This document shows, piece after piece, positions 52,059 to 55,000 of a DNA stretch of 64,000 nucleotides (position 1 is its first letter; the number at the start of each line of letters is the position of its first letter). The notes beneath the pieces were generated by a model. It was not told the DNA's origin. It did no database searches and worked only from the letters and a program-made list of their open reading frames with translations. Made by a program: the position numbers and the translations under genes. Source of the stretch: Salminus brasiliensis (Eukaryota > Chordata > Actinopteri > Characiformes > Bryconidae). Location: positions 1,632,589-1,696,588 of the forward strand of contig NC_132897.1 in assembly GCF_030463535.1 (NCBI RefSeq), written 5' to 3'.

Positions 52059-55000
52059 ATGCTGGAGCATCTTTTCTCGTCATGGTTTTGGTCTGGACCC
52101 ACTCGTCCAGGTTTGTGTAGTGGCTCTGCCCTGACCCTGCTGCTGGTTCTCCTGGTTTGGCTATGTGGGATTCAGACAAGCCTCAGTTTAGGACCAGGAG
52201 GGGAATTCCCTGGATTTGCTGGTAAGCTGTTCATGGATCTTAACCCCACTATTATAGACGATAGCCTCCTTACCCCAGAGCTCACCTCACCCCAGGATGA
52301 CCCCTGGGTCACTCTAGCTTTTGTGGCCCTTCCAGGCTAACACTGCACTGTGTATATAACATTAGTATAAACCCAAATAAACATAGTCAGTGAGAGTGTC
52401 TACCTGTAATTAACTCTATATAACATTAGTATAAACCCAAATAAACATAGTCAGTGAGAGTGTCTACCTGTAATTAACTCTATATAACATTAGAATAAAC
52501 CCAAATAAACATAAAGTCAGTGTTCAGTGAGAGTGTCTACCTGTAATTAACTCTATATAACATTAGAATAAACCCAAATAAACATAAAGTCAGTGGTCAG
52601 TGAGAGTGTCTACCTGTAATTAACTCTATATAACATTAGAATAAACCCAAATAAACATAAAGTCAGTGGTCAGTGAGAGTGTCTACCTGTAATTAACTCT
52701 ATATAACATTAGAATAAACCCAAATAAACATAAAGTCAGTGGTCAGTGAGAGTGTCTACCTGTAATTAACTCTATATAACATTAGAATAAACCCAAATAA
52801 ACATAAAGTCAGTGGTCAGTGAGAGTGTCTACCTGTAATTAACTCTATATAACATTAGTATAAACCCTAATAAACATAGTCAGTGGTCAGTGAGAGTATC
52901 TACCTGTAATTAACTCTATATAACATTAGAATAAACCCAAATAAACATAAAGTCAGTGGTCAGTGAGAGTATCTACCTGTAATTAACTCTATATATCATT
53001 AGAATAAACCCAAATAATCGTAAAGTCAGTGGTCAGTGAGAGCGTCTACCTGTAATTAACTCTATATAACATTAGAATAAACCCAAATAAACATAGTCAG
53101 TGAGAGTGTCTACCTGTAATTAACTCTATATAACATTAGAATAAACCCAAATAATCGTAAAGTCAGTGGTCAGTGAGAGCGTCTACCTGTAATTAACTCT
53201 ATATAACATTAGAATAAACCCAAATAAACATAAAGTCAGTGTTCAGTGAGAGTGTCTACCTGTAATTAACTCTATATAACATTAGAATAAACCCAAATAA
53301 ACATAAAGGCAGTGGTCAGTGAGAGTGTCTACCTGTAATTAACTCTATATAACATTAGTATAAACCCTAATAAACATAGTCAGTGGTCAGTGAGAGTATC
53401 TACCTGTAATTAACTCTATATAACATTAGAATAAACCCAAATAAACATAAAGTCAGTGGTCAGTGAGAGTGTCTACCTGTAATTAACTCTATATGACATT
53501 AGAATAAACCCTAATAAACATAAAGTCAGTGTTCAGTGAGAGTGTCTACCTGTAATTAACTCTATATAACATTAGTATAAACCCAAATAAACATAGTCAG
53601 TGTTCAGTGAGAGTGTCTACCTGTAATTAACTCTATATAACATTAGAATAAACCCAAATAAACATAAAGTCAGTGGTCAGTGAGAGTGTCTACCTGTAAT
53701 TAACAGGTAAAATTGTCTTAGATGTAGTCAATATATGTAATATTTCTCACTCACTCATTTGTATAGCATATTTATGGATATTTCTACTTGTTTTAAGTCA
53801 TTTTGTCAAGTAAAGTTATCTAATTTTTTGGCAAATCATGTTATTTAAAAACTAGATAAAGTGTCTAGAAATTCTTATGAGCAATCCTTTCCTCCCAAAA
53901 CTACCGCAGTTAATGCACCACTTTTCTCATCTACGCCCACAGACTTCATCTTCTACGCCTTCAGTCATGAGGAGATAACGTCTCTTCTCTACAATCTCAC
54001 CCTCTTGCTGTGTCTTGGACCATCCCAGGAGAGAAGATGGGGCACCGTGGCGTTCCTCAGCCTCTCCCTGCTCTCAACAGTGCTCCTCCCTCCCATTTAT
54101 GCCCTCTTCCTCTTCGTGACGGGTGACGAAGCCAGTCGAGTTTGCGGCTATTCGGCCACGCAGCTCGCCCTGTTCACCGCTCATTGTCGGCAGGGCAGGC
54201 AGAGACGGGTCCTCCGCTGTCTGCCGCTCTGGTCCCTGCCTTGGCTCTTCCTACTGCTCGACCTGTTCCTGCTGCCCAGCGCTCCGGGCCTGCTGCACTT
54301 CTACGCCATTTGTCTGGGCCTCAACTGTATCCTTTACCTTCTTCAATGGCATCAATACACACCATAACCCACAGCATTTTATGACCCATTTCAAATGTAT
54401 TAATAGCCATAACATTAAAACCACTAAACCAGGTTCCAGTGGGTTCAGTGGAACATCTCCAAAACATCAGGCAGGTCTTATGGAGTGGTCAGTACCTACC
54501 AAAAGTGAACATGTGACATGGGGTCATGGACGCCCAAGGTGTAGTCCCTTAAGAGAAGTACTGCCAATAGAATAGGACTCTCATGCTGCCTAATAATGCC
54601 AGACGTGGGCTAGTAGAGGGGTATAAAGCCCCCCAGCATTGAGGAGCTGTGGAGCAGTGGTAGAGCTGTGTTCTCTGAAATGATGGAGGTGGAGCTCCAT
54701 GCAGTACTTTTGGGTTGAGTTGGGGATGATGTGGTTGGGTGGTGATCATCTATTCAACATCCTGACCTCACTAACGCTCTTGTTGCTGAATGCAATCAAA
54801 TCCTCACAGCAATCCTCACTCCAAAATCTAGTAGAAAGTCTTCTTCTCTGGACAGTAGAAACAGTTACTCCAGCAAAAGCAGGATCAGCTCTTTTTAATA
54901 CCCTTGATTTCAGAAGAAACAATGAATGAGCAGGTGTCCCAATACTTTTGTCCATTTAGTGTATGTATCGTATCCTTAACATGTTTCACAGACAGCTTGG

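Follow-up and report, generated by a model that had tools for sequence, protein, structure and literature searches.

Mammalian RHBDD3, also known as PTAG (UniProt Q9Y3P4 according to PMC12615303), has been described as a distant and barely characterised pseudoprotease (PMC6451368) and as an inactive protein that has a UBA (PMC12615303). Its treatment as a pseudoprotease, which the original prediction had stated, is borne out by PMC12476590 and PMC6451368, where it is so listed; PMC11929074 likewise has it as a pseudoprotease or inactive. One report terms it a rhomboid family protease, but describes ubiquitin binding alone: in mouse, Rhbdd3 recruits A20 and attaches to the K27-linked ubiquitin that NEMO carries (PMC7717991). 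In RHBDL4 (RHBDD1), an active ER rhomboid protease, the catalytic pair is S144 and H195, at a distance of 51 residues; the change W65A lowers activity about six-fold, and G198A leaves it near wild type in detergent (PMC11929074). A model derived from structures of Escherichia coli GlpG with inhibitors has the oxyanion held by His150, Asn154 and a water (PMC3690538).

The gene described here lies in a window of 64,000 nucleotides (the whole stretch of DNA that was analysed) from the fish Salminus brasiliensis. It encodes a rhomboid domain that carries a Ser-His pair, together with a UBA. Is such a protein a protease, or is the pair a relict?

Gene structure and neighbourhood

The Rhbdd3 gene has five coding exons on the + strand (52059-57209), and the joined frame gives 368 aa with a single terminal stop (Table 1). 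The start codon and splice sites were chosen from the sequence alone. Exon 2 encodes the rhomboid core, as judged by splice sites and the Pfam match. It is preceded by an acceptor, CACAG, ahead of 53943 and followed at 54327 by the donor GTATCC, a weak GT. Different choices of splice site for exons 4 and 5 would keep the frame open (366, 367 or 369 aa) and leave the rhomboid part unaffected. The Pfam Rhomboid match (PF01694, residues 55-167) has E = 1.4e-10 and, at 41.9 bits, is well above the curated cut-off (22.6); the UBA match (PF00627) passes narrowly, with 22.6 bits against 22.4.

Table 1. Coding exons of Rhbdd3 and active-site residues, in window coordinates
Feature	Position	Strand	Basis
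Exon 1 (coding): from the start codon through a TM1-like hydrophobic stretch into loop 1	52059..52221	+	open frame, GT donor
Exon 2: rhomboid core TM2-TM6, residues 55-183, both terminal codons interrupted by introns	53943..54326	+	splice sites, Pfam Rhomboid
Exon 3: last part of TM6, then the beginning of the cytosolic tail	54992..55133	+	splice sites, frame, whole-genome match
Exon 4: linker preceding UBA	55880..56137	+	splice sites, frame, whole-genome match
Exon 5: UBA (residues 314-346) and stop	57050..57209	+	Pfam UBA E = 9.4e-5
His63, aligned with GlpG His145	53966..53968	+	alignments; coordinate from residue number
Ser68, at the place of oxyanion-hole GlpG His150 (lost)	53981..53983	+	His in 28/28 references
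Asn72, aligned with oxyanion-hole GlpG Asn154 (kept)	53993..53995	+	alignments
Ser125 in VCGYSAT, aligned with catalytic GlpG Ser201	54152..54154	+	several alignments
His173, aligned with catalytic GlpG His254	54296..54298	+	MAFFT A2 and A4 and most profile-profile runs; not A3 or the profile aligner

The host genome measures 1.07 Gb in 103 contigs. When the complete protein was searched against this genome, five matches fell within the Rhbdd3 gene itself, one was to Rhbdd2 (E = 0.0029) and one was insignificant (E = 1.23). Rhbdd3 is thus single copy, and a second copy is ruled out by this search. Exon 2 matched no relative in collections of viral, genome and plasmid contigs.

Head to head with Rhbdd3, on the - strand, is a gene with RGG stretches at about 37.9 kb, SYGQ-type stretches and, near 39160, a zinc finger of the RanBP type; its start codon was read by eye near 51415. 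Further out, at 25375-26466 on the - strand, is a CH-domain gene. We take the first to be putatively EWSR1-like and the second to be GAS2L1-like. The human order is GAS2L1, EWSR1, RHBDD3, and because the order in the window matches it, the gene is taken as the RHBDD3 orthologue; protein and neighbourhood together point to the fish orthologue.

The locus has other features. The start codons of the EWSR1-like gene and Rhbdd3 are about 640 bases apart (about 51415-52059), and the two genes may share a two-way promoter. Intron 1 is mostly minisatellite (52353-53704; a 73-bp unit in 17.4 copies, 94% matches), which ends about 240 bases ahead of exon 2. Similar interspersed elements are found at about 54460-54960 (reversed), 56380-56930 and 58200-58640, in Rhbdd3 introns and downstream; by eye they have stretches such as CTTTATACCCC in common and are likely to be one transposon family. 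A claudin-like open frame of 271 aa (44015-44827, - strand; PMP22/Claudin match, E = 3.1e-15) is nested between exons of the EWSR1-like gene on the same strand and is apparently a single-exon gene.

The Ser125-His173 pair

Rhbdd3 was compared with a reference profile of 28 bacterial rhomboids; 30 had been collected, and L068 and L069 were dropped as truncated. The set took 9 of the 48 rhomboid loci listed, most of the 48 being from one genus, and plasmid rhomboid matches were fetched from two listings (4 and 16). One sequence, L051, was excluded from alignment A4, as its insert had shifted TM6 in A3.

The serine of CGYSA had been predicted to stand at the GxS place, and it does: Ser125 falls on the column of GlpG Ser201 with the full profile and also when columns 201 and 254 are masked. 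With nine columns masked, the local match stops short of TM4 and Ser125 is not placed. When Rhbdd3 was shuffled, a Ser reached the catalytic column in 65 of 2000 cases with the full profile, in 7 with two columns masked and in 8 with nine masked. Ser and His together reached the catalytic columns in none of 2000 shuffles with any of the three profiles, and the real sequence did not do so either. The shuffle test counts for Ser only, because the profile aligner omitted TM5-TM6 in the real sequence.

His173 has to be placed by other means, since HMMER/hmmalign stop before TM5 and leave TM5-TM6, including His173, unaligned. MAFFT puts it on the His254 column in A2 and A4 and elsewhere in A3. Global profile-profile alignment with hhalign puts it there in five of six runs, and in two of three with that column masked, at low per-residue confidence; without the runs that include a provisional human sequence, the counts are three of four and one of two. 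The original prediction, that this His lies seven residues before Gly180 at the place of the catalytic His, is thus borne out by the majority of the global alignments, but less strongly than the placement of the Ser. The distance between Ser125 and His173 is 48, as had been stated. It lies within the range of 46-69 found among the 28 bacterial rhomboids; the values for GlpG and RHBDL4, put in the low fifties by the original prediction, are 53 and 51. On composition alone, a Ser and a His would occupy a given pair of columns in about 0.2% of cases (10/127 x 3/127). Going by these alignments, the Ser125-His173 dyad is real and more than chance, with the placement of His173 less well supported than that of Ser125.

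A structure was predicted with AlphaFold2 for exon 2 without TM1, from a supplied alignment with 10 bacterial rows. The model is of low confidence (mean pLDDT 62, pTM 0.44), with helices at residues 2-7, 11-32, 34-59, 61-67, 71-82, 87-108 and 115-126 of exon 2. At this confidence, it has Ser125 (70 in the model) immediately ahead of the TM4 helix and His173 (118) near the beginning of the final one, where a rhomboid would be expected to have them. A Foldseek comparison of this weak model with a library of solved structures gave no match.

Other active-site positions

Thirteen columns of the reference alignment were examined, and eight are constant in 28/28 sequences: His145, His150, Asn154, Gly199, Ser201, His254, Gly257 and Gly261 (GlpG numbering). 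Rhbdd3 keeps six of these, His145, Asn154, Gly199 (Gly123 in the fish), Ser201, His254 and Gly261 (Gly180), where the matches to His254 and Gly261 rest on MAFFT A2/A4 and hhalign. Further kept is Glu84 with Arg86 (equivalent to Glu166 and Arg168).

The two constant residues that have changed are His150, replaced by Ser68, and Gly257, replaced by Ala176, so that the Gx3G of TM6 reads Ala176-x3-Gly180; Gly occupies both places in all 28 references. At the place of Gly202 is Ala126 (GYSA, not GxSG), where 26 of the references have Gly and two have Thr. Leu129 is found at the place of Tyr/Phe205. A WR motif is not seen in loop 1, which reads DFIFYAF ahead of His63; Arg137 of this motif is present in 20 of the 28 references.

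How costly would these changes be? Ala126 need not be fatal, given the Thr in two references. Ala176 corresponds in position to RHBDL4 G198 (His + 3), and the near wild-type activity of G198A suggests that a change of this type may be tolerated. Loss of the His150 equivalent is the hardest to excuse, because the Gly257-type change is tolerated in RHBDL4 and WR loss costs about six-fold there. As a separate observation, rhomboids of Limosilactobacillus (L002) and Enterococcus (L060) read GAST and not GASG at the catalytic Ser; Gly after the catalytic Ser is thus not absolute among annotated rhomboids.

Rhomboid relatives in the same genome

The departures seen in Rhbdd3 are not a general fish feature, because Rhbdd1 of the same genome (L072/L078) has a complete active site (WYR, FHH, WHLYFN, GFSG, HLSGILVG) that includes His150 and Asn154. 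The nearest paralogue of Rhbdd3 is Rhbdd2 (L076, L085), with 31% identity over residues 56-192. Like Rhbdd3, it has TM2-TM6 in one exon. Unlike Rhbdd3, it has kept His150 and has Ser at the place of Asn154 and Ile at that of the catalytic Ser; by our own count, an Asn stands seven residues before the TM6 Gly, where the His would be. No UBA was noticed by eye across 9.9 kb of Rhbdd2, whereas Rhbdd3 has one. As different residues have been eroded in the two genes, the simplest reading is an ancestor with all four residues and separate erosion in each descendant. The common ancestor of Rhbdd2 and Rhbdd3 would then have had His150, Asn154 and the dyad, i.e. it would have been a working protease.

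Five more loci (L070, L071, L073, L075 and L077) comprise three iRhom-like and two Parl-like loci. The Parl-like loci keep His150 and Asn154, as read by eye. The iRhom-like loci have GPAGS, plus a TM6 His (AHICGF, AHIFGF). Multiple iRhom-like and Parl-like loci are expected after the teleost genome duplication; Rhbdd3, in contrast, is single copy.

Comparison with the human sequence

A provisional sequence of human RHBDD3 is 386 aa long, with Met, Leu and Ser at the places of Ser125, His173 and Asn72 by pairwise alignment and, by profile alignment, Gly at the place of His150. Fish Rhbdd3 is 33% identical to this sequence (124/377), and exon 2 is 31% identical (40/127 aligned); the UBA and C-terminal stretch are nearly identical. 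The profiles leave the provisional human protein unaligned at the catalytic Ser (a gap, or Cys). The earlier claim of human Met and Leu at the dyad places agrees with this sequence, but the two are not independent. For the UBA of the provisional sequence there is an independent check, an shRNA target given in PMC12864862 that translates to AVSLLVG.

What might fish Rhbdd3 do?

Fish Rhbdd3 is a single-copy gene for a rhomboid domain joined to a UBA; it carries a catalytic dyad, and several positions around that dyad have been eroded. The original prediction had suggested that such a protein could be active, with activity lost in mammals. Loss may equally have preceded the fish-tetrapod split, or have occurred in parallel, or in mammals alone. 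In favour are the dyad, the oxyanion Asn and the spacing, all of which are kept; against it, the equivalents of His150, Gly257, Gly202, Tyr/Phe205 and the WR motif are gone. We lean towards the reading that Rhbdd3 is a rhomboid-like adaptor that binds ubiquitin, that its catalysis is weak or dead and that its dyad is a relict, and regard this as slightly better than an even prospect. The six-helix rhomboid-like membrane domain would hold the transmembrane part of client proteins, while the cytosolic UBA would recognise the ubiquitin that partners carry, in the way described for mouse Rhbdd3. The protein would descend from a working rhomboid protease, of which the fish still carries the dyad and the oxyanion Asn. 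Proteolysis is probably weak or absent and the dyad probably a relict because His150, the TM4-TM6 packing glycines and WR are gone. The adaptor role in fish, the orientation in the membrane and the loss of turnover are what we infer from this pattern.

Could the fish protein nevertheless cut? It may be a protease that works within the membrane and has an atypical oxyanion hole, made of Ser68 (in place of His150) and Asn72; its substrates would be selected through the UBA, and activity may have been lost toward mammals. Equivalents of Asn154 and His145 accompany the dyad at normal spacing, and the tolerance of Ala at the Gly257 place in RHBDL4 (PMC11929074) would speak for it. There is also a precedent for the pairing of domains, as the tail of the active RHBDL4 contains a ubiquitin-interacting motif (PMC11929074). 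The survival of the dyad and the oxyanion Asn at so low an identity of exon 2 to the provisional human protein is unlike the behaviour of an unconstrained dyad and hints at a retained function. Yet His150, Gly257 (28/28 in references) and Gly202 have all changed, the WR motif, without which RHBDL4 is some six-fold less active (PMC11929074), is not seen, and the reading, like all the dyad evidence, draws on one species. If the provisional human sequence is right, His150 was gone by or after the fish-tetrapod split, or was lost twice, which makes a fully active fish enzyme less likely. Activity in the fish is a possibility that we consider unlikely. The fuller version, in which this fish has a working protease whose oxyanion hole is Ser-Asn instead of His-Asn and whose UBA picks out ubiquitinated substrates, and mammalian RHBDD3 is its dead remnant, is improbable as the sequences stand. 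If it were true, the NEMO/A20 role would be what was left after cutting was lost, or would have grown beside it.

Alternatively, the dyad might be kept for structure or client binding, through TM4-TM6 hydrogen bonds or contact with a client helix, and not for cutting. GlpG Asn154, Ser201 and His254 are polar residues of a common active-site pocket (PMC3690538), client binding is retained by rhomboid pseudoproteases (PMC11555709), and the three iRhom-like loci retain a TM6 His beside GPAGS. The provisional human protein does without these residues, so that neither the fold nor the mammalian role would depend on them, and we consider this explanation distinctly doubtful. That Ser and His occupy these columns by chance, or that TM6 is out of register with His173 off the active site, is very improbable: the profile aligner's omission of TM5-TM6, the different placement in A3 and one of six hhalign runs, the low per-residue confidence and a weak structure model with no solved counterpart would allow it, but the other five hhalign runs, MAFFT A2 and A4 and two of three masked runs agree on His173, composition makes the pair rare, and Asn72 and His63 fit as well.

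To return to the adaptor with a relict dyad, the intact dyad in the fish orthologue suggests that RHBDD3 descends from a complete rhomboid. Fish Rhbdd3 may have caught the loss half-way, with the dyad and one oxyanion residue kept and others gone; a different set is gone in Rhbdd2. The fish and mammalian proteins form a testable pair for the role that RHBDD3 had before it was a ubiquitin adaptor. Should the fish protein cut, the pseudoprotease label would be lineage-specific. Among the matches listed from the RHBDD3 and rhomboid literature, the text excerpts carry no mention of a dyad in fish RHBDD3; an earlier remark may exist.

Comparison with known systems

The iRhoms and UBAC2/Dsc2 are rhomboid-like pseudoproteases described as acting through client binding, and UBAC2, like fish Rhbdd3, has a UBA. 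The iRhoms are described with GPx before the Ser place; fish Rhbdd3 has GYS, with no proline, so that this iRhom feature is absent.

E. coli GlpG is like fish Rhbdd3 in its rhomboid fold, as judged by sequence, and in having the equivalents of Ser201, His254, Asn154, His145, Gly199 and Gly261. The GlpG residues changed in the fish protein are His150, Gly202, Tyr205, Gly257 and the WR motif.

RHBDL4 resembles fish Rhbdd3 in dyad spacing (51 versus 48), the oxyanion Asn and a tail that binds ubiquitin. It differs in having WR, His80 (at the His150 place by alignment) and Gx3G, together with a UIM and a motif for p97 binding, whereas fish Rhbdd3 has Ser68, GYSA and Ax3G, no WR that can be seen and, in a domain search confined to Pfam, a UBA.

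Mammalian RHBDD3 is built like the fish protein, its rhomboid domain being joined to a UBA at the C-terminus. The two differ at the active site, where the fish has Ser, His and Asn at positions 125, 173 and 72 and the provisional human sequence has Met, Leu and Ser.
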